In this document: positions 50,690 to 60,561 of the stretch, one piece after another
Position numbering within the stretch: the first letter of the stretch is position 1
How the letters are laid out: each line of letters starts with the position of its first letter
Assembly: GCF_002234535.1 (NCBI RefSeq)
Contig: NZ_CP022521.1
Location: 3,038,001-3,102,000, forward strand
DNA from: Actinoalloteichus hoggarensis
GTDB lineage: Bacteria > Actinomycetota > Actinomycetes > Mycobacteriales > Pseudonocardiaceae
Length of the DNA: 64,000 nt
Direction: 5' to 3'
Notes under the pieces: generated by a model
What the model saw: the letters and a program-made list of their open reading frames with translations, nothing else
The model's database searches: none
What the model was told of the DNA's origin: nothing
Program-made: the position numbers and the translations under genes

Positions 50690-51351
50690 CCGTCGGCCGT
50701 TCGCCGAATCAGCGCCCCCAAACGGGCGGCTACCCGCATCGGTGCGCCGAGGGGGCGCGACGCTCGACGGAGACGGCCTGATCCGTTCCCACACACCAGG
50801 CGGAGGGCCGTGCGGCGCGTCGCCGGCTCGGGCCCGACGGCACGGACCATGTCGCTCCCTCGCTGCCCGGCGGCGCGGCGGTGCCCGCTACGCGCGTGAC
50901 GGGCGGGCACGAGGACCGCCTCTGCCTCGGTGGCGAGGACGGCCGGTTCTGACAGAGTCGGCCGCGCTGACGCGATCCCGACCGGATGACCGGCTCGCGA
51001 CACCGACGGAGCAGGACGTTCCCGCCTCGAACGCCGTCGACGAGGAACCGGTGTCGCGGGTGACCGGCGGCGCCGCGCAGGTGTTCGCCCCGGCGACGAC
51101 GGAAGACGACCTGTCGGCGGCGCCACATCGAAACGGTGTCGGGTAGGAGGACGCAGGACCAGCGGGGGCCCGCTCCGTCGTGCGGCCGGGCATCCGTCGT
51201 CGGCGGGCTCACGCCGAGCCCGCCGATCCGCACGCCGCACCGGGCGGCGGTCCGGAGATCCGGAGATTCCGGAGGGGGAGCGGTCGTGTGGTGCGCACGG
51301 CCGTCGGGGGTCGGCCGGTCGAAGCCGATCGGGTCTCGTAGGGTCTGTCGC
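50690..51351. other. Gene-poor 660-bp region
   Basis: No protein-like frame. Just before the next gene, TAGGGT (51339-51344) ends 7 bases before GTG 51352, consistent with a leaderless start. Confidence 0.4.
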
Positions 51352-52182
51352 GTGGAGCAGTTGACGAGCCCGAAGATCGCGGCCGAGTGGCCGGTGGAAC
51401 ACGCGGCGATCGCGGTGGTCGGCGCCGACGGCACGCTGCTGGGGCAACACGGCGACCTCGATCGTGTCTACGCGCTCGCCTCGGTCACCAAACTGCTGAC
51501 GTCCTACGCGGTGCTGATCGCCGTCGAGGAGGGCGCGGTGGAGTGGGACCGTCCGGCGGGGCCGGCGGGCTCGACGCTGCGGCATCTGATCGCCCACACC
51601 TCGGGGCTCGCGTTCGACGGCGGCTCGACCGTCGCCGAGGTCGGTGCCAAGCGGGTCTACTCCAACGGCGGTTTCGATCTGCTCACGGCGACGCTGGAAG
51701 AGGCGTCCGGGATCTCCTTCCCGACCTACCTGACCGAGGCGGTGCTGGATCCGCTGGGAATGTCGAACACGAGGCTTGAGGGCAGCCCGGCGGCGGGAGC
51801 CGTCGCCAGCGGCGCCGATCTCGTCCGGTTCGCCGCCGAGCTGCAGACACCGCGGCTGATGTCACCCGAGCTGCTGCGCGAGGCGACCACCGTGGCGTTC
51901 CCCGACCGGGACGGCGTGCTGCCCGGCTATGGAATGCAGCGTCCCAACGACTGGGGCCTCGGCTTCGAACTCCGCGACGGCAAGGAGCCGCACTGGACCG
52001 GGACACTCACCTCTCCGTCGACCTTCGGTCATTTCGGCCAGTCCGGCACGTTCCTCTGGGTGGACCCCGTCCTGAAGGTCTCCTGCATCGCCCTGACCGA
52101 CCGCGTCTTCGGCCGGTGGGCGGTCCGTGCGTGGTCTGACTTCAACGACGCGTTGGTCGCCGAGCTGCGCGCTCGAATCTGA
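51352..52182 (+). CDS. Serine beta-lactamase-like hydrolase (class C/esterase family)
   Basis: A 276-residue cytosolic (no signal peptide) beta-lactamase-fold enzyme. The SxxK motif is S44-V-T-K47 (YALASVTKLLTSYAVL), the YxN motif Y103-S-N (RVYSNGGFDLL), and HFGQSGTFLWVDPVLKVSCIALTDR supplies the third motif region. HLIAHTSGLAFDG is typical of EstB/penicillin-binding-like esterases. It probably hydrolyses an ester or amide rather than antibiotics. GTG 51352 lacks a ribosome site and may be leaderless. Confidence 0.88.
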   Translation: MEQLTSPKIAAEWPVEHAAIAVVGADGTLLGQHGDLDRVYALASVTKLLTSYAVLIAVEEGAVEWDRPAGPAGSTLRHLIAHTSGLAFDGGSTVAEVGAKRVYSNGGFDLLTATLEEASGISFPTYLTEAVLDPLGMSNTRLEGSPAAGAVASGADLVRFAAELQTPRLMSPELLREATTVAFPDRDGVLPGYGMQRPNDWGLGFELRDGKEPHWTGTLTSPSTFGHFGQSGTFLWVDPVLKVSCIALTDRVFGRWAVRAWSDFNDALVAELRARI

Positions 52183-52487
52183 CGGCGGACGAGATGGTCG
52201 TGGCGCCGATCGCCACCTCCGATGCCGGGCACCCGATCCGGCTCCGGCGCAGGCGGTGCCGCACCATGTGACCGGCCAGGCGACTGCCCGACGGCCGTGC
52301 CCGACGGCCGTACGCCCGGTCGTAGCCGCTCGGCCGTTCGTCGCCGCCCTACCGCCGGTTCGGCCTGGTGCTCGGATCACGCCCACGGTGCTCCCGTCGT
52401 CTCGTTCGGCCCGATGCGTCAGCCGAGCTGCCCGGGTCCGCGGCGCCGGCCAGCTCGTCGCGGCTGACGAGTGAGCTGACGGGAGTT
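52183..52487. other. Convergent intergenic region
   Basis: About 300 bp between the beta-lactamase-like gene and the terminator of the fusion gene. It contains GTGGCG-CCGAT-CGCCAC (52200-52216), a possible terminator for the plus-strand gene. Nothing else was recognised. Confidence 0.4.
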
Positions 52488-52523
52488 CCGAGGGGCGGTG
52501 TCCGTGCGAACACCGCCCCTCGG
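52488..52523 (-). terminator. Very strong terminator of the DyP-GRE fusion gene
   Basis: A perfect 14-bp stem CCGAGGGGCGGTGT / ACACCGCCCCTCGG with an 8-nt loop begins at the base next to the TAG stop of the minus-strand fusion gene. One of the strongest hairpins in the window. Confidence 0.85.
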
Positions 52524-55500
52524 CTACCGCTTCGGCTCGACGCTGAAGGGCCTGCGTTCGTGAGTGCGCTGGTGGCCCGGGAACATCGAGATGAAGAACT
52601 CCGACCAGCCGCCCATACGGACCCGGAGCAGATCGTATTTCTCCGGATCACGGCAAGCCGCCGCGAACGTCTCCGGGTTCGCGCACGTCACCGTCAGCAG
52701 ATTCGATCCGGCACCCTGACAGAAGGCCCGGAGTATCTCGGTGAGCGCGGTGAAATCGAACTCCTCCCGGATGTTGAAGTCGGTGGGCGCGGTATCCCAG
52801 AAGTCGGCCGTGCCCGCGCCGCTGAGGCTCCGCAAGGCTGCCAGGAAGTCGACCTCCTGGTGATCGACGGGCCGGTCGCCCGGACTGGGTGTGGGGCTGA
52901 GGTCGGTGGCCAGCGGTTCACCCGATCGGCGTCCCTCCGCCGACGCGCCCACCTGGGCACCGAACTCCAGGTAGTTCTCGAAGGTGCCGACTCCTGGTTG
53001 CAGCTGCAGACCGAACGGGTGTTCCGCGGTGCCGTATCGCCGGGCCAGTTCCACCATGGTGCGTGCGGTCGGAGCGGCGGGATCGGTGAACACGCTGAGC
53101 ACCGTGGTGGACATCCGTTGCAGGAAGTCGTTCCCGAAGGCGTCGATCTCGGGGTGGCCCCGCCCGTACTTCGGCAGCGCCAGCGCGGCCTCGCGCAGGT
53201 CACGGAAGCGCTCGGCGCGGGCGGCGACCCGGCCCGCGCCCGCCAGGCTGCTCGTGAACGGCTCCACCATCGACTCGCCCCAGTCGCACATCAACGCCTC
53301 GACCAGCTCCGGAAGGGAGGTCACCGCCGTGGCCGGATCGAAGACGAGGTGACGCACGGCGTACAGCGAGTTGATGGTGTTGGACAGACCCGTGAAGCAC
53401 GGCGCGAGGACGTTGTACCGGGCGCCGCCCGCGTAGTAGTCCATGCCCTTCTCGACGCAGTCGTCGACGAAGACCGACAACAGCGGCGACGGGCACACCT
53501 CGCTCATCCTCCCGTACAGCCCCAGCACGCCGTCGGCCTGCTTGGCGTACATCCAGGACAGGTGCGTGAAGAACAGGTCCTGCACCTCGTCGAAAGAGGA
53601 GATCCGGGTCGGTTTAGGGGAGGTGAACGACACTCGTTGGCCCCGGAAGTACATCGGTCCCGCCGTCAGCCAGGACTTCCCCTGATTGAGCGTGGCCTCC
53701 AACACCTGGAGCGTGTTGACGTTGCCGAGGGTGAACCAGTTCTTCCCGACGAACTGCGGCTCGTAACAGCCGTCACATGCGTAGTCGCGGGCTACGCTGA
53801 GCGGCACGGTGCTGCGCCACCGCTCACCTGCTTTCTCCGCGACCGGCGTGAATTCCGTCGGTCCGCTGCCCGAGCCGATGTCCTCACCACTGCGAACGAG
53901 CCCGGGGATGACCTTCTCGTCGTTGATCAGGATCGGATGGGCGCCACCGCTGAGGAGGGCGCGTGCCGACTCGTCCAGGTACTCCTGCGGGATGTCCGGT
54001 CGTACCCGTAGCGAGAGGCACGGGGCGTTCAAGGGCAGCCTGCGGGCAGCCCGAAGGCAGAGCATGGTCAGGCGGTTGTAGGCAGGCCTGCCGCTGCCGG
54101 GCGTGTCGTCGGCGACCGTGCCGCCGACGGTGATCTGCTGCACCCATTGATTGTTGGACCCACCCTGCGGATAGCTGCCGCTCGCCCCGCCCATCGCCAT
54201 GTTGCCGAAGGGCTGGTTGTCATCGACGAAACCCCGGTTCCACAACACGTTCTCGCCGAGCTTGACCCACAGGCAGTCGATGATCTCCTGCGCCTGGTCG
54301 TCGTCGATCTCGCCGAGCGCGAGATCGCGATCGTAGAAGGGCTGAAGAAGCTGGTCGAGCCTGCCGATCGCCGTCGGCTCGCCGATCAGGTGCAGGCACG
54401 AGTGCAGAGTGAAGATCAACTGCGTCGCCTCGGCGAGGGTCTCGGGCGGGCCGTCCGCCAGCTTGCGCATCCTCGCCTCGACATCGGCTAGATTGCGCTG
54501 CTCGACCTCCGATGACGCGGGAAGCCCGGCCGCCGTGTCGGCCGCCAGGTCGGCGAAGGCGAGGCAGTGCGCCTGGACCCCCTCCAGAGCCAGCCGAGTG
54601 GCCAGATAGAACTGCCGCTTCTGCTCGTCGGCGGCGGCCGCCAGTCGGCCCGCGACGTCGTCGATGAGGCCGCTGATGCCGTGGTCGAGCAGTCGTTGAT
54701 AGTCGGGGACCACATGGCCGACGCCGGAGGCGTGGCTGAGATTCTGGAAGAAGTGACCGAGCTTCTCGTCGTCGCGGGTGTAGTCGACGACGTACTTGCC
54801 CTGGCCGAGACCCAGACTGGGCATGCCGCCGACGATGATCTCCAGGGGATCGAGGTGGTAGGTGTCGGCTCCGTTGACCCAGTTGCCCTCGGCATCACGC
54901 CGACGCCCACGGAAGCCGTACTCCGTGGAGGCGAACACGCTGCCGAGACTGAGCTTCACGGCCCAGCCCATGCGCTCCATCACGGGCCGACTCATGATCT
55001 CCATCGCGCGTTCACGATCGAACTCGCGTTCCAGGAGTTCGGCGAGATGACCCGGCTCCGGCTGAACCCGGTCGAAGTACCAGTTGTCCTGCCAACGGGA
55101 GAAGGTCTTGCTCAGCAGGCGGAGCACCCGCTTGGACGGCGGCAGGGACCGCAGGCGTTCCGCACCCGACATCGTCGCCATGTGGAACAGATAGTCGCGA
55201 TGGTTGTAGTACTGGTAGCCGTTGCCGGAACGCTCGGTGAAGTGGCGATCGAGACGGTTCCAGTCCATTCCGGGGACCTCGTCCCAGCCCACGTCGGCGA
55301 GGTTCGCCAGCGTGGTCGGCTCCAGCTCCAGCATGGTCTGGTTGGGAACGAAATAGAAGCCGCCGATGTCGGCGTGTGCGGAGGTGAGCAGCCGATCGGC
55401 CATGTATCCGGGCCGGTCGCCCACCTGCGTGGCCATGACCGACTCCAGGACCCGGACGTTCTTGGCGTATCCGGCGAAGTAGACGCCCTGCTCGTCGCGC

Positions 55501-56474
55501 AGGCTCGCGCCCTTGTGCCGGAGATCGTCGCTGTGGACGGCGCTCGACGTGCCGTAGGGCAGACCGAGCCGCAGGATGCGCATCGTGTCGCCCGCGTCGT
55601 CCTGCGCCCGCGAGCACTTGATGTGGCTGCGCTCGTCCCTGGACGGCACGATGACGTCCTCGGCCGTACGCCCCACCAGGTCCTCGATCTGGTCCGGGCC
55701 CATGTTGAGGATGTGTTCCCAGTTGAAGGCGAAGCGCTGGGCCAGGACGAAGGAGGAGCCCGCGTACGGAGGGTCTTCGTTGCCGACGATCGTGTGACCC
55801 TCGATGGTCACCGGGTCCGTCGGGTTGTTGAGGTTCTCGGAGAATCGACAGCCGAGCACCTTGCCGCCCAGCTTGTCCGGGCGCACCGACTTGGTCGCCG
55901 CGTCCTGGGAGACCGTCCGTGAGGCGTCGACGCAGTCCTCCGCCGCCAGCAGTTCCGACAAGAGGTCGAACACCGCCCGACAGTCGCCGTCGCGGTCCGA
56001 CTTCAGGTGGAACCACAGATCGGCCTGCGAGTCGGCGAAGGTGCCATGGGAGCGCTCGAACACCGCGGAGACCAGCCCGGCAGCCGGGTCCTCGGCCGAC
56101 TCCGCCGGGAAGAGGAGGGCCATGCCCGTCGGTAGCGCGATGCCCTCCTGTTCGCAGATCTCACGCCACAGCGGGAAGCCGACGCCGACGACCGCGGTCG
56201 TGTTGGCGTCGGCATGACGCTCCTGGATCGTCTCCTGGATCGAGGACATCACCCTGGACAGCAGCGCCCGGCTGATCGGGACGCCGCCCGCCTGCCGCCA
56301 GAAGGTGGCGAACAGGGCGTACGGCGACGGGTGGATCAGTCCGCGCTGGATATGTCGCCAGATCTCGTGGCCGTCCAACACGTCGTCCGGCGGGAGCGGG
56401 CGGACCGGGGCGACGGTGCGAGGGCTGGGGAGGGTGGTCTGTGCCGAGTAAATGCCGGTCGATGAATCGGACAC
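52524..56474 (-). CDS. DyP-type peroxidase fused to a glycyl-radical enzyme (PFL-like)
   Basis: A 1316-residue protein from GTG 56474 (AAAGAAAGG 7 bases upstream). Residues 1-90 are an uncharacterised helical lead. Residues about 92-385 are a DyP-type haem peroxidase: FSENLNNPTDP (211-221) at the distal motif with Glu213 replacing the usual Asp, IVGNEDPPYAGSSFVLAQRF, H284 in SHIKCSRAQ as proximal haem ligand, and RILRLGLPYG with R302. Residues about 400-1316 are a glycyl-radical enzyme: YACDGCYEPQ with thiyl C903 and Glu905 (GCxEP, eliminase-type), YYAGGARYN, GTFENYLEFGAQVGASAEGRRSGEP, and C-terminal RMGGWSEFF with G1289 at the glycyl position (RVxGY consensus). Both radical residues are kept. 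No radical-SAM activase lies in the window. Substrate unknown. Confidence 0.88.
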   Translation of the reverse strand: MSDSSTGIYSAQTTLPSPRTVAPVRPLPPDDVLDGHEIWRHIQRGLIHPSPYALFATFWRQAGGVPISRALLSRVMSSIQETIQERHADANTTAVVGVGFPLWREICEQEGIALPTGMALLFPAESAEDPAAGLVSAVFERSHGTFADSQADLWFHLKSDRDGDCRAVFDLLSELLAAEDCVDASRTVSQDAATKSVRPDKLGGKVLGCRFSENLNNPTDPVTIEGHTIVGNEDPPYAGSSFVLAQRFAFNWEHILNMGPDQIEDLVGRTAEDVIVPSRDERSHIKCSRAQDDAGDTMRILRLGLPYGTSSAVHSDDLRHKGASLRDEQGVYFAGYAKNVRVLESVMATQVGDRPGYMADRLLTSAHADIGGFYFVPNQTMLELEPTTLANLADVGWDEVPGMDWNRLDRHFTERSGNGYQYYNHRDYLFHMATMSGAERLRSLPPSKRVLRLLSKTFSRWQDNWYFDRVQPEPGHLAELLEREFDRERAMEIMSRPVMERMGWAVKLSLGSVFASTEYGFRGRRRDAEGNWVNGADTYHLDPLEIIVGGMPSLGLGQGKYVVDYTRDDEKLGHFFQNLSHASGVGHVVPDYQRLLDHGISGLIDDVAGRLAAAADEQKRQFYLATRLALEGVQAHCLAFADLAADTAAGLPASSEVEQRNLADVEARMRKLADGPPETLAEATQLIFTLHSCLHLIGEPTAIGRLDQLLQPFYDRDLALGEIDDDQAQEIIDCLWVKLGENVLWNRGFVDDNQPFGNMAMGGASGSYPQGGSNNQWVQQITVGGTVADDTPGSGRPAYNRLTMLCLRAARRLPLNAPCLSLRVRPDIPQEYLDESARALLSGGAHPILINDEKVIPGLVRSGEDIGSGSGPTEFTPVAEKAGERWRSTVPLSVARDYACDGCYEPQFVGKNWFTLGNVNTLQVLEATLNQGKSWLTAGPMYFRGQRVSFTSPKPTRISSFDEVQDLFFTHLSWMYAKQADGVLGLYGRMSEVCPSPLLSVFVDDCVEKGMDYYAGGARYNVLAPCFTGLSNTINSLYAVRHLVFDPATAVTSLPELVEALMCDWGESMVEPFTSSLAGAGRVAARAERFRDLREAALALPKYGRGHPEIDAFGNDFLQRMSTTVLSVFTDPAAPTARTMVELARRYGTAEHPFGLQLQPGVGTFENYLEFGAQVGASAEGRRSGEPLATDLSPTPSPGDRPVDHQEVDFLAALRSLSGAGTADFWDTAPTDFNIREEFDFTALTEILRAFCQGAGSNLLTVTCANPETFAAACRDPEKYDLLRVRMGGWSEFFISMFPGHQRTHERRPFSVEPKR

Positions 56475-56784
56475 GGGTGTGCCTTTCTTTGTGCGCGGTC
56501 GGGCGGCGGTCTCCGTGCATGCTCGGCACGGCGGTGAATGCGTCGAGCCGCCGATTCGGTGGCGCCTGACATCCGGGAACGGAGAGATGGCGTGCAAAGG
56601 CGGCCCTGGTCGCCGCTGTCGGTTCGGCTGGACACTCCGGGTGTTCCGGGCAAGTGCTCGCGGATCGGCGCACGTCATGGTGGGCGACCGGGCAGCACGG
56701 CATCGCGCTCGGACCGCGAAGGCGGCCGTGTCGTCCCGGCGGTCGAGGCCGGTGACACGGCGATCGCTCCTCGGAAGAACGGCG

Positions 56785-56813
56785 ATACTAGAATGAAAGA
56801 TGTCTTCGATTAA
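56785..56813 (-). promoter_or_regulatory. Candidate promoter of the DyP-GRE fusion gene
   Basis: Reading the minus strand, TTAATC (56813-56808), a 17-bp spacer and TAGTAT (56790-56785) form a plausible sigma-70-type promoter in an AT-rich patch. The leader to GTG 56474 would be about 300 nt, long enough for leader control. Confidence 0.45.
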
Positions 56814-57239
56814 TGGGCTTCCCCATGCGTAAGTCAGGCAATGCACAAGTTAGTCGTCGCGCTGATGTCGTGTCATCCCTCGGTCGGGGGATTCGACCGG
56901 GTGATGTCAGATGTGTTTCTTCTTCGGATACGGCTCCGTCGCCGTGCCGTGCCGTGGCACGGCCGCCGAGAACCGGCGGGCGGACGTCCGGTTCCGGTCT
57001 CGCCGGACTCCGACTCTTCATACCCGGACTCTGCAGACTCCGGCTCCCCGGCTCGTCTCCGCCTTCTCCAGAGGCTCGCCTCCCCGGGCCGCGCCGGAAA
57101 CCGCGTCCGGCGGCAGACGTCGGCCGTCAGGACAGCGGTGTGTCGGCGGCCGCCCGGCGGCGTGGGGTTCTGATTCGTCGCCGCGCGCGCCGGGTACGCC
57201 GAGAGGACGACAGTTCACCCGAACGGAGAAGGAAGGACT
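56814..57239. other. Intergenic region between fusion gene and DJ-1 gene
   Basis: About 425 bp. It contains an AT-richer start, a hairpin CGGTCG-GGGGATT-CGACCG (about 56881-56900), and GC-rich sequence before the DJ-1 ribosome site. No protein-like frame recognised. Confidence 0.4.
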
Positions 57240-57821
57240 ATGGGACGACGACTGGACGGACATCGGGTCGCCATTCTCGCCGCGGACGGAGTCGAACAGG
57301 TCGAGCTCGTGCAGCCCCGAGAGGCGGTCGAGGCGGAGGGCGCGCGGACCACGTTGCTCTCGGTGGCCTCCGGCGAGATCCAGGCGATGAACTCCGACAT
57401 CGAGCCCGCCGACACATTCGCGGTGGACCGCGTGGTCAGCACGGCGACCGCCGACGACTACGACGCCTTGATCCTGCCCGGTGGCACGGTGAATCCGGAC
57501 AAGCTGCGGCAGGACGAGGCCGCCGTCGGATTCGTGCGGGACTTCTTCCGGGCGGGCAAGCCGGTCGGCGTGATCTGCCACGGTCCGATCACCCTGATCG
57601 AGGCCGACGTCGCACGCGGCCGCACGCTCACCTCATTCCCGAGCATTCGCACCGACCTGCGGAATGCCGGTGCGGTCGTCGTCGATCGAGAGGTGGCGAC
57701 GGACCAGGGCCTGGTCTCCAGCCGGAGCCCCGGCGACCTGCCCGCCTTCTGCGCGAAGATCGTCGAGGAGTTCGCCGAGGGCATACATCCGGTGCATGAC
57801 GAGGGCGCGACGGCGCGCTGA
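57240..57821 (+). CDS. DJ-1/PfpI-family protein
   Basis: A 193-residue class I glutamine amidotransferase-like fold protein. GHRVAILAADGVEQVELVQPREAVEAEGARTTLLS, DDYDALILPGGTVNPDKL with the acidic residue, and the nucleophile elbow PVGVICHGPITLIEAD with a Cys. SIRTDLRNAGAVVVDREVATDQGLVSSRSPGDLPAFCAKIVEEF closes the fold. Relatives act as deglycases/glyoxalases, chaperones or proteases under carbonyl or oxidative stress. AAGGA precedes the ATG. It is divergent from the DyP-GRE fusion and 141 bp before a small HVA-type gene; all three may belong to a stress response. Confidence 0.9.
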   Translation: MGRRLDGHRVAILAADGVEQVELVQPREAVEAEGARTTLLSVASGEIQAMNSDIEPADTFAVDRVVSTATADDYDALILPGGTVNPDKLRQDEAAVGFVRDFFRAGKPVGVICHGPITLIEADVARGRTLTSFPSIRTDLRNAGAVVVDREVATDQGLVSSRSPGDLPAFCAKIVEEFAEGIHPVHDEGATAR

Positions 57822-57962
57822 CCGGTCCCGCCGGCAGAGTCCCGTCGACGCGCCCCCTGCCGCCAGGGCAGGCGACCCGCCACGGCACCGCGGCGTCCGG
57901 ATACACCCGACGCCGCCGACCGGCGGCGTCGAGCGGGCGTCGAGGTGATCGAGGAAGGACGG

Positions 57963-58184
57963 ATGATGGCACGAGAAGAGTTCACACCCGGCGACGCCGT
58001 CGAGTGGAGCAGCCACGGCAGCACCGCCCGAGGAGAGGTGCGGGAGAAGATCACCCACGACACCGAGGCGGCGGGGCGCACCGTCCGTGCCTCGGCGGAG
58101 GAGCCCCAGTATCGCGTTCGCAGCGCCAAGAGCGGCCGGGACGCCGTGCACCGACCGCAGGCACTGCGCAGACGTCGTTCCTGA
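57963..58184 (+). CDS. Small HVA/DUF2945-type (tudor-like) protein
   Basis: A 73-residue protein: EFTPGDAVEWSSHGSTARGEVREKITHDTEAAGRTVRASAEEPQYRVRSAKSGRDAVHRPQAL shown in the order of an SH3-like barrel of the hypervirulence-associated/DUF2945 family. GAGGAAGGA lies just before ATG 57963; ATG 57966 is an alternative. The function of the family is unknown; genes often accompany general-stress loci. Confidence 0.82.
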   Translation: MMAREEFTPGDAVEWSSHGSTARGEVREKITHDTEAAGRTVRASAEEPQYRVRSAKSGRDAVHRPQALRRRRS

Positions 58185-58467
58185 TCCGCACCGGTCCGGG
58201 CACGGCACGACATCGGACCCTGTGACCGTGCCGGTGCTCGGCGCTCCGCCTCGAGGCAGCCGCGTCACCGAACCGCTGGTGGCGAGCCTGACTCGGTCGA
58301 CAACCGCCCGGCGGGCCCTCCGATCGACTTGTCCGCCGTCGTCCGCCGGTCCGGCCACGCCCGAGATCCGTCCCGCGCCGCGGGTTTGGTCGGTGGGACG
58401 CCGGGTAGGCCCAGTGCTGATCAGCTCGCGTGTCGGATGGCGCCGCCGCGACGACGAGGGGAGATCG

Positions 58468-60561
58468 ATGGCCGGCCAGGCAGGGATCGATCAGTCGTGG
58501 GGCGAACGGACCCCGTACGGTCCGGGCGAGCGGTGGCCTGTCCGCGTGGACGCCCATCTCGTCGACGGGGTGCGGCAGGAGCACGTGGAGCGGTGGATTC
58601 CGACCGTCGCCGTCCTGCACTCCAACGGCGACGGAATGCAGCTGGGAGTCGCCCGCGGTCGCATCGTCGGTGTCCGAGGGCGCGCCGACGACCGCGTCAA
58701 CCACGGCAGGCTCGACCCGAAGGGCCTCTACGGCTGGCAGGCCAACGGCTCCCGCGACCGACTCACCGTTCCACTCGTCCGTGAGGCGGGCGAACTCGTG
58801 GAGGCCACCTGGGACGAGGCCATGGATCGCATCGTGCGGCGCACCACCGAACTGCTCGCCGAGCGCGGCCCGAGCGCGATCGGTTTCCACACCAGCGGTC
58901 AGCTCTTCGCCGAGGAGTACTACACACTGGCGGCGATCGCACGGGGTGGACCGGGCACGAGTCACCTTGACGGCAACATCACCAGGCCGTGCACGGCCAC
59001 GGCGGCTTCCGTGAAGGAGTCGTTCGGCTGTGACGGGCAGCCGGGCTCCTACACCGACGTCGACCATGCGGACACGATCGCGCTGTTCGGGCATAATGTC
59101 GCGGCGACGCAGGCGGTGTTGTGGTCGCGCATCCTGGACCGACTGGCCGGGCCGAATCCCCCGGCGCTGCTGTGCGTCGACCCCAGGACGACCCCCGCCG
59201 CCAAGGCCGCGACACTGGCGGTCCAGGTGAACACTCTCCATCTCATTCGCGGGACGCTCGGCAGACCGGGAGCGGGCGTACTGCAGATGAACGGCCAGCC
59301 GACCGCCCAGAACGCGAGGGAGTGCGGCGCCGACGGTGATCTCACCGGCTTCCGCGGCTGGGCGAATCCGAAGCACATCGACGAGCTGGCCGCACTGTGG
59401 AAGATGGACCGGGCGAAGCTCGATCACGGCAAGCCCCCCGCCCACGCGATGAAGATGTCGCAGTACGCCGAGGAGGGCACGCTCGGCCTGTTGTGGGTCT
59501 CGGCCACGAACCCGGCGGTCTCGCTTCCGGAGCCGCGGCGGGTCCGCCGGATACTCCGAGGCGAGAGCCTGTCCCTGGTGGTCCAGGACGGCTTCCCCAC
59601 CGAGACCGCCGACCTCGCCGACGTGGTCCTGCCCGCCGCGTTGTGGGATGAGAAGACCGGAGTCTTCACCAACGCCGCCCGTACGGTCCACTTCTCCGGC
59701 AAGGCGGTGGAACCGCCCGGTTCGGCCCGGTCGGACCTGGACATCCTCCTCGACTTCGTCCGCAGGCTGGACCTGCGTGACCAGGCGGGCGATCCCTTCC
59801 CCGACTGGCATGACTCCGAGTCGGCCTTCGAGGCCTGGAAGGCGGCCGGCGCGGGACGGCCGTGCGACTACACCGGGCTCACACACGAGCGGCTCCGGTC
59901 CACCGGCCCGGTGCAGTGGTTTTGCGACGACAGACACCCCGACGGCACGGAACGGCTGGACGCCGACGGGCGATTCTCCGCGCGACCGGAGCACTGCGAG
60001 AACTACGGCCACGACCTGATCAGCGGGACGCCGATCGAAGTCGAACGTCACCGGGCGTACAACTCGGACGGACGGGCGATGATCCGTGCGAGGCCGTACG
60101 TCTCCGCCCCGGAGGGCGCGTCGGCCGACCACCCGTTCTCGTTGATCACCGGACGCAGCCTCTACCAGTTCCACACCCGCACCAAGACCGCCCGCGTGCC
60201 CGAACTGGACCGGGCCGCTCCGGACGTCTGGGTGGGGGTCGCGGCCTCCGACGCGGCCGCCTTCGGCTTCGACGACGGACGGCTCGCCGAGATCACCACC
60301 CCTCGGGGCATGGCCCGCGCGACCGTCCGGATCGGCGAGATCCGTCCCGGCGTCCGCCTCCCCTTCCACTACGGCTACTGGGACGTGTCGGAGCCCGAGG
60401 GCGGCCACCGGGCGGCCAACGAGCTGACCCGCACCGACTGGGACCCGGTGTCCAAGCAACCCGTCTTCAAGCTGGCGGCGGCCAGGATCGCCGCCGTCGA
60501 GCCCGATACGCCGTCGCCGGTGACGTCGGGGTCCGGACCCGAGAACGGAGGAGCGCCATGA
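58468..60561 (+). CDS. Molybdopterin oxidoreductase lacking the N-terminal Fe-S cysteines
   Basis: A 697-residue cytosolic member of the DMSO-reductase superfamily (nitrate reductase/formate dehydrogenase-like). At the usual CxxCxxxC [4Fe-4S] site this protein reads TVAVLHSNGDGMQLGV (about residues 46-62), without cysteines, followed by the conserved GRIVGVRGRADDRVNHGRLDPKGLYGWQ. LDGNITRPCTATAA retains C175 at the molybdenum-ligand position. The C-terminal molydopterin-binding domain (PFSLITGRSLYQFHTRTKT) is complete. GAGGGGA precedes ATG 58468. Its stop overlaps the next gene's ATG (ATGA), so translation is coupled with a zinc alcohol dehydrogenase. Substrate unknown. Confidence 0.87.
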   Translation: MAGQAGIDQSWGERTPYGPGERWPVRVDAHLVDGVRQEHVERWIPTVAVLHSNGDGMQLGVARGRIVGVRGRADDRVNHGRLDPKGLYGWQANGSRDRLTVPLVREAGELVEATWDEAMDRIVRRTTELLAERGPSAIGFHTSGQLFAEEYYTLAAIARGGPGTSHLDGNITRPCTATAASVKESFGCDGQPGSYTDVDHADTIALFGHNVAATQAVLWSRILDRLAGPNPPALLCVDPRTTPAAKAATLAVQVNTLHLIRGTLGRPGAGVLQMNGQPTAQNARECGADGDLTGFRGWANPKHIDELAALWKMDRAKLDHGKPPAHAMKMSQYAEEGTLGLLWVSATNPAVSLPEPRRVRRILRGESLSLVVQDGFPTETADLADVVLPAALWDEKTGVFTNAARTVHFSGKAVEPPGSARSDLDILLDFVRRLDLRDQAGDPFPDWHDSESAFEAWKAAGAGRPCDYTGLTHERLRSTGPVQWFCDDRHPDGTERLDADGRFSARPEHCENYGHDLISGTPIEVERHRAYNSDGRAMIRARPYVSAPEGASADHPFSLITGRSLYQFHTRTKTARVPELDRAAPDVWVGVAASDAAAFGFDDGRLAEITTPRGMARATVRIGEIRPGVRLPFHYGYWDVSEPEGGHRAANELTRTDWDPVSKQPVFKLAAARIAAVEPDTPSPVTSGSGPENGGAP

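Follow-up and report, generated by a model that had tools for sequence, protein, structure and literature searches.

A DyP-type peroxidase domain fused to a glycyl-radical enzyme in Actinoalloteichus hoggarensis: conservation of the fusion and scarcity of recognisable activases among its carriers

Related enzymes and published fusions

Glycyl-radical enzymes (GREs) carry out difficult chemistry, such as dehydration and the cleavage of C-C, C-N and C-S bonds; they are destroyed by oxygen, depend on an oxygen-sensitive radical-SAM partner and are normally found in oxygen-averse microbes. The described systems closest to the C-terminal half of the protein considered here are the glycyl-radical diol and glycerol dehydratases and choline lyase CutC, which share with it the barrel fold, the GC-x-E motif and an equivalent of His164, whereas the fusion differs from them in its RxGGW loop, in mostly having no recognisable activase and in its N-terminal, putatively haem-binding domain. 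The closest relative of that domain is DypB of Rhodococcus jostii, a B-type DyP with the fold, proximal His and distal Arg in common with the fusion, which, unlike DypB, also carries a GRE. A looser parallel is provided by the ribonucleotide reductases, in which the same kind of thiyl-radical barrel is started by an oxygen-dependent cofactor in class I and by a glycyl radical in class III.

A DyP domain and a PFL-like domain in one chain have also been noted in ascomycetes, as Ccochdyprx of Chaetomium cochliodes in 2016, citing a 2014 review (PMC5041501), and as g1956 of Xylaria grammica in 2021 (PMC8469222), with the function described as unknown in both papers. Peroxyacetic acid is reported to induce the Chaetomium homologue 18.5-fold and H2O2 to induce it 3-fold, and a putative PFL activase, of unknown class, is reported from the same fungus (PMC5041501). 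The fusion architecture itself is thus already in print, while the original prediction knew of no described system for the radical chemistry that it implies; the present fusions, likened to the fungal ones by published domain description, come from bacteria of five phyla.

The fusion gene

The window, that is the whole stretch of DNA analysed, comprises 64,000 nucleotides. An uninterrupted frame with DyP and GRE elements had been predicted at 52524-56474 with no strand named; it is real and lies on the minus strand, where a single frame encodes 1316 aa plus a stop, the plus-strand reading being interrupted by stops. All motifs named in the prediction are found at the residues assigned to them in the 1316-aa translation.

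52524..56474, minus strand: gene of the DyP-GRE fusion, 1316 aa from a GTG start (reading frame, Pfam, homologues)
56482..56490, minus strand: Shine-Dalgarno-like AAAGAAAGG, 7 bases before the GTG of the fusion gene (read directly)

The open frame extends past the GTG to 56846 (1440 aa), and the aligned start place is also used in the relatives G002 and A. caeruleus, in which the frame was called from the first ATG or GTG. No RNA element was found in 52000-58000 of the window, and neither a viral contig nor a PADLOC match links the fusion to phage or defence.

The DyP half

55275..56387, minus strand: DyP-type haem peroxidase domain, predicted, about residues 30-400 (Pfam Dyp_perox_C and Foldseek)
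55836..55838, minus strand: Glu213, where DyPs have the distal Asp of GXXDG (E in 31/31; alignment with DypB)
55623..55625, minus strand: His284, predicted proximal haem ligand (H in 31/31; alignment with DypB)
55569..55571, minus strand: Arg302, distal Arg (R in 31/31; alignment with DypB)

Both predicted halves were recovered by Pfam, the N-terminal one as Dyp_perox_C (residues 216-379, E 4.3e-13) and the C-terminal one as PFL-like (residues 573-1125, E 1.7e-110, 371 bits). The best Foldseek match of the DyP domain is R. jostii DypB (3veg, E 9.3e-16), and it is a B-type-like DyP haem-peroxidase domain that would be expected to bind haem. The DyP elements originally predicted hold for the fold and the proximal His284, and the distal Arg is also present, but the catalytic Asp of GXXDG (Asp153 of DypB) is replaced by Glu213 in 31/31 fusions and therefore peroxidase activity of the fusion is not assured. 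A further DypB residue, Asn246, corresponds to Gly304 (Gly in 29 and Ser in 2 of the 31 fusions).

The glycyl-radical half and the linker

52527..55139, minus strand: glycyl-radical-enzyme domain, residues 446-1316 (PFL-like and Foldseek)
54714..54716, minus strand: His587, counterpart by alignment of glycerol dehydratase His164 (H in 31/31)
53760..53768, minus strand: C903-Y904-E905, thiyl Cys and Glu base, the C-x-E of dehydratase-type GREs (31/31; alignment)
52605..52613, minus strand: G1288-G1289-W1290, glycyl-radical loop RMGGW (31/31; G1289 aligned with GREs)
55140..55274, minus strand: linker joining the halves in the main fusion family, residues 401-445, with invariant W, H, Y and R abundant (column conservation)

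A structure model of residues 113-1312 is good in the GRE half and has as its best Foldseek match a diol dehydratase (5i2g, E 1.4e-31), while its DyP part, mostly at pLDDT 30-55, is unusable. Sequence and model comparison show the thiyl Cys, the Gly of the C-terminal loop and the PFL-like barrel fold of a GRE. The RVxGY-type loop is lacking, R-M/T-G-G-W standing in its place in 31/31 fusions, Pfam Gly_radical reaches 17.5 bits, under its cut-off of 22.2, and the organism's own genome and most carriers have no recognisable radical-SAM activase. The "complete" GRE of the original prediction is therefore borne out in its conserved thiyl Cys and glycyl Gly, but it is a non-standard one in its loop and in its sub-threshold Gly_radical score.

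The protein is not a pyruvate formate-lyase, having GCYE with no CC pair and scoring 30 bits with TIGR01255 where 994 are needed. Nor does it have His281 and Asp447, which we take to be the substrate residues of the B12-independent glycerol/diol dehydratases: the His281 position is Glu699 (31/31 fusions), and the Asp447 position of glycerol dehydratase is Thr915 (Thr in 12, Ser in 17, Ala in 1 and His in 1 of the 31 fusions). Invariant columns make up 14/45 of the linker, compared to 8/200 of residues 1-200, 44/200 of residues 201-400 and 194/871 of residues 446-1316.

Conservation and distribution

Cys903, Glu905, Gly1288-Gly1289, His284 and Arg302 are invariant in 31/31 aligned fusions from five phyla, which upholds the expected conservation of C903 and G1289; this alignment leaves aside Hymenobacter (frames broken), the divergent L111 (30% identical) and an Acinetobacter copy, G864, with an internal TAG. 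The survey of homologues likewise found the fusion itself conserved, in the two other genomes of the genus that were compared (86% and 77% identity) and in 27 further full-length copies in named genomes, besides one copy on a plasmid. An assembly artefact or chance frame is effectively refuted by these copies.

The GRE half is the better conserved (mean identity among fusions 0.62, against 0.54 for the DyP half), and the distances of the two halves correlate with a Mantel r of 0.97, which indicates that they co-evolved. It is improbable that the GRE half is a former radical enzyme now serving as a scaffold or binding domain within a large peroxidase; the shortage of activases over cut-off and the low Gly_radical score would fit such a loss, whereas the invariance of C903, E905, G1289 and H587 in 31/31 fusions and the stronger conservation of this half argue against it.

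The glycyl loop reads GGW in all DyP-linked GREs, namely the 31/31 fusions, L111 and the Hymenobacter GRE, while among 29 unfused GRE loci the loop is visible in 26, with GY in 25, GF in 1 and GGW in 0. This replacement of RVxGY by R-x-G-G-W in DyP-linked GREs is newly described here, as are the divergent DyP-GRE fusion and the separate-gene pair: L111 has a canonical GFRDG in its DyP half and, on inspection by eye, no conserved linker, and Hymenobacter has separate genes, GRE then DyP. A gene pair in this order would also be expected if the two halves catalysed consecutive steps on a single substrate, the DyP perhaps oxidising the GRE product, and activation were a separate matter, and the second DyP-GRE lineage also speaks for this; such a two-step enzyme leaves the missing activase unexplained and seems to us decidedly improbable.

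Survey of activases

The GRE activase model TIGR02494 scores above cut-off in 3/30 fusion genomes and in 0/2 further ones, the L111 genome and the Acinetobacter with the interrupted copy (3/32 in all). The PflA model TIGR02493 exceeds its cut-off in the same 3/30, 26/30 having no match above 62 bits, and each of the three activases adjoins a separate, ordinary PFL with an RVSGYA loop. The organism's own genome, a single contig and 100% complete, has no GRE activase over cut-off; most of the fusion genomes are drafts, so that single absences are weak. In the control, 45/47 genomes whose GREs matched without a DyP half have an activase above cut-off (Fisher p 3e-15 against 3/30, the genomes not being independent). 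These 47 were drawn from 73 matching genomes by excluding the own genome, 20 of the same order or class and 5 of the same phylum. The 20 have a DyP-half match among the matches listed, except for five that are not among them; of the five from the same phylum, G294 and G340 have their match in the DyP half, and G053, G079 and G199, with a best E of 1e-6 or weaker, are not among the matches listed. A recognisable GRE activase is thus absent from most carriers examined (29/32), a new observation, in contrast to the fungus with its reported putative PFL activase (PMC5041501).

A radical-SAM enzyme missed by the activase models could still act in trans, with the DyP half only clearing peroxide near the glycyl radical so that it survives in aerobes. 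To our knowledge, every known GRE requires a radical-SAM activase, which favours this explanation, as do other radical-SAM-like proteins in 6/6 genomes tested, sub-threshold activase-like matches in Trinickia (117 bits, split over two frames) and Shewanella abyssi (second match, 131 bits), the putative fungal activase (PMC5041501) and an AmrS-like protein in the organism's own genus. The last is encoded in its own genome at C1:2182240-2183667 (290 bits to TIGR04337) and is related to activases, but was rejected as the family's activase, matching at E<=1e-10 in just 4/32 carriers; QueE (L035) was also rejected, its best NCBIfam matches being QueE models, below their cut-offs. No activase-like protein is common to the carriers (AmrS-like 4/32, PflA-type 3/30), the three CX3CX2C matches in called frames of 29 loci include a single PflA-like one, which adjoins Chromobacterium's own PFL, and the glycyl loop is altered from RVxGY to RxGGW. 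We consider activation in trans rather unlikely.

A possible peroxide-fired start

As most carriers are without a recognisable activase, the DyP half may be a built-in igniter, and the best explanation, to which we give a probability of roughly 40%, is an activase-independent GRE whose radical is made by a peroxide-fired haem domain. The C-terminal half would be a working GRE of the C-x-E (dehydratase/lyase) group, and the N-terminal haem peroxidase would react with a peroxide, either H2O2 or an organic one. This would yield a high-valent haem, which, directly or by way of a Trp/Tyr radical, would oxidise the GRE half to give a radical on Gly1289 or Cys903, the transfer presumably running in this direction, so that no radical-SAM activase would be needed to start the enzyme and it might be fired again after quenching by oxygen. 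This explanation is favoured by the invariant radical residues, the activase counts, the GGW loop of DyP-linked GREs, the co-evolution of the two halves and the induction of the Chaetomium homologue by peroxides (PMC5041501); the putative fungal activase (PMC5041501), the AmrS-type and other radical-SAM-like proteins, the sub-threshold activase-like matches and the Glu in place of the distal Asp count against it. A relay through linker 401-445 cannot be general, because L111 is without the conserved linker.

The oxygen-tolerant or peroxide-linked chemistry suggested in the original prediction would fit the activase counts (3/32 compared to 45/47). More tentatively, aerobes may by this route, in which the fused haem peroxidase uses peroxide to create the glycyl or thiyl radical and no radical-SAM activase is needed, reach chemistry thought to be open to anaerobes only. 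By analogy, the fusion so conceived would stand to ordinary GREs as the oxygen-started class I ribonucleotide reductase stands to class III, although the haem-peroxide starter of the fusion is hypothetical. If true, a self-starting, peroxide-fired GRE would be a new way to make a protein radical, paralleling that split and attractive for biotechnology.

Gene neighbourhood

The spread of the fusion is patchy and no neighbour gene is widely common, which is also new here. An operon with activase or substrate genes was rejected, both flanking genes in the window (51136-52182 and 57240-57821) lying on the opposite strand to the fusion gene. Neighbours at 29 loci were clustered after crude frame calling, with flanks of at most 9 kb at nearly all loci, and no activase occurs among the families found in at least three loci. 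The most widespread neighbours are a response-regulator/sensor family (6 loci), an aldo-keto-reductase-like family (5 loci: 3 Acinetobacter, 1 Pedobacter, 1 Flavobacterium) and two families that occur solely in six Pedobacter loci. Genomes G000 and G001 have three further called genes in common, G002 and A. caeruleus none. Outside the clusters of at least three loci, a SUMF1/EgtB-like gene lies upstream of the Asticcacaulis fusion.

The fusion and its relatives

The fusion gene and two frames opposite it, which probably reflect G+C content, are:
52524-56474, minus strand: DyP haem peroxidase–glycyl-radical enzyme (GRE) fusion, 1316 residues, GTG start
52368-54011, plus strand: antisense frame, 547 aa
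54567-55922, plus strand: antisense frame, 451 aa

A Shine-Dalgarno-like AAAGAAAGG lies seven bases upstream of the fusion's GTG. The original prediction that a DyP peroxidase and a GRE share this frame was borne out by Pfam, which finds Dyp_perox_C at residues 216-379 (E 4.3e-13) and PFL-like at residues 573-1125 (E 1.7e-110), with Gly_radical below cut-off (17.5 vs 22.2 bits). No NCBIfam model reached cut-off for the fusion (Dyp_perox_fam, 99.1 bits vs 100.5; PFL2-3, 245 vs 678). Foldseek matched a predicted model of residues 113-1312, its GRE half predicted well and its DyP part not, to diol dehydratase 5i2g (E 1.4e-31), and a model of residues 1-440 (mean pLDDT 68) to R. jostii DypB (E 9.3e-16).

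Two short peptide patterns, scanned against a collection of 84,980 species genomes, hit 136 stretches; 27 of these are fusion relatives, every one full length, spread over Actinomycetota, Cyanobacteriota, Chloroflexota, Pseudomonadota and Bacteroidota. That the fusion, C903 and G1289 are conserved also holds, both residues being present in 31/31 aligned fusions. The closest named relatives are from Actinoalloteichus (Pseudonocardiaceae; 73-74%); all three same-genus genomes examined, including the window's, carry the fusion, the other two copies being 86% and 77% identical. Among 396 genomes drawn from the phylum, with two candidates scored per genome, the full-length match was to the own genome only, the others among those listed being to the GRE or DyP half alone. 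Three of 99 sampled Acinetobacter species have the fusion, two of them already in the set; the G864 genome's copy (C1:2639653-2643585) contains one internal TAG, either decay or a sequencing error. Many fusion hosts, such as Acinetobacter, Pedobacter and Actinoalloteichus, are aerobes. An additional fusion, 43% identical, lies on an Asticcacaulis plasmid, where a SUMF1/EgtB/PvdO-like gene (L041:6855-7859) is directly upstream, with a gap of about 30 bases.

A tree built from 58 GRE domains by a quick method, with long branches flagged and the clade base unresolved, puts the 31 fusions in a single clade (SH-aLRT 100). Two cyanobacterial fusions cluster with seven actinobacterial ones (support 92), a grouping that suggests horizontal transfer. 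Distances of the DyP and GRE halves correlate (Mantel r 0.97; 0/2000 permutations as high), and the halves, judging from their sequences, have co-evolved.

Sister to this clade (support 92) is L111 (205-3789, genome G701), a divergent DyP–GRE fusion with 30% identity in the GRE half and the motifs GFRDG (canonical, DyP), GCWEP and RVGGW; in a search of 395 genomes from the phylum of Pedobacter, its genome and the query's own were the two to reach E<=1e-60. A Hymenobacter plasmid (L042:8022-11361) carries a GRE annotated as two frames and then a separate DyP gene, the order opposite to that of the fusion's domains; both genes are apparently frame-broken, their frames being read separately, and the GRE's glycyl loop is RMGGW, as in the fusions.

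Conserved residues

Invariant in all 31 fusions are H587, E699, C903, Y904, E905, R1286, G1288, G1289 and W1290 of the GRE half and E213, H284 and R302 of the DyP half. By HMM alignment to DypB, E213 falls on the catalytic Asp, H284 on the haem ligand and R302 on the distal Arg, and G304 (Gly in 29/31, Ser in 2/31) aligns with Asn246. C903, E905 and H587 correspond to Cys433, Glu435 and His164 of glycerol dehydratase, whereas its His281 and Asp447 are absent from the fusion's GRE half. The linker (401-445) is denser in invariant columns (14/45) than the other three parts counted (8/200, 44/200 and 194/871), but in mean identity (0.61) it does not exceed the GRE half (0.62). The glycyl loop, R-M/T-G-G-W, departs from the RVxGY of ordinary GREs; among 29 unfused actinobacterial GRE loci the loop was visible in 26, with GY in 25 and GF in one.

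Search for an activase

TIGR02494 (GRE-activating protein) scored over cut-off in 3/30 fusion genomes, and in neither the L111 genome nor the Acinetobacter with the interrupted copy (0/2). TIGR02493 (PflA) did so in the same three, where PflA adjoins a separate PFL, its likely client, whose loop reads RVSGYA; Shewanella abyssi has PflA and a second, sub-threshold TIGR02494 match (131 bits). Of 47 control genomes with DyP-less GREs, all matched at E<=1e-10 and 45 were over cut-off. The Fisher p of 3e-15 for 3/30 vs 45/47 is indicative only: the genomes are non-independent, with seven from Pedobacter and three from Acinetobacter, drafts make up most of the fusion set, and the control organisms are probably anaerobic. 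No activase was found among the clustered neighbours at 29 fusion loci.

A trans-acting radical-SAM activase of an unrecognised kind is possible. TIGR02493 gave some match at E<=0.001 in 29/30 fusion genomes; scores were <=62 bits in all except the three positives and Trinickia (117 bits, split across two frames). A CX3CX2C scan of called frames gave three hits, of which one, from Chromobacterium, is PflA-like. In the own genome, a single contig of 100% completeness, no activase-model match is over cut-off; the best is an AmrS-type protein, with QueE among the rest. The AmrS-type protein, a GRE-activase relative (L033:853-2280; AmmeMemoRadiSam type, TIGR04337, 290 bits), is present in the three same-genus genomes, with a 35% relative in Shewanella abyssi; occurring in 4/32 carriers, it is ruled out as the common activase.

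How the radical may be started

The GRE half would perform radical chemistry, its radical residues being invariant, and it may be started in an unusual way, given the missing activase and the changed glycyl loop. The haem-peroxidase half would be the obvious candidate starter, because this partner recurs in a second fusion lineage and in a separate-gene pair. Against such a haem starter stand the Asp-to-Glu change at E213, read from the alignment, and the models, which give no interdomain arrangement. PMC5041501 reports a fungal homologue induced by peroxide and peroxyacetic acid, which fits a haem starter, and a putative activase in the fungus, which counts against it.

The radical chemistry implied by the fusion had been put forward as not known from a described system. 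The fusion itself is already in print: DyP-PFL fusions are noted as unexplained in PMC5041501 and PMC8469222, the former (2016) placing them in distantly related prokaryotes and eukaryotes, and a 2014 review is cited in that literature. For the activase absence, the GGW loop and the Glu substitution, no report was found in searches of the open-access literature, which leaves most subscription papers outside.

Gene neighbourhood

The broadest cross-phylum neighbours are a response-regulator/sensor family (6/29 loci) and an aldo-keto-reductase-like family (5/29, two phyla; L054:4522-5571 and relatives, <=9 kb from the fusion). Also in the window are:
57240-57821, divergent, next to the fusion: DJ-1/PfpI gene, also matching the large-catalase C-terminal domain
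58087-60561: formate-dehydrogenase/nitrate-reductase-like molybdopterin oxidoreductase

The DJ-1/PfpI gene has no counterpart in the called frames of three other loci compared. After the oxidoreductase come genes for a Zn alcohol dehydrogenase and an SDR.
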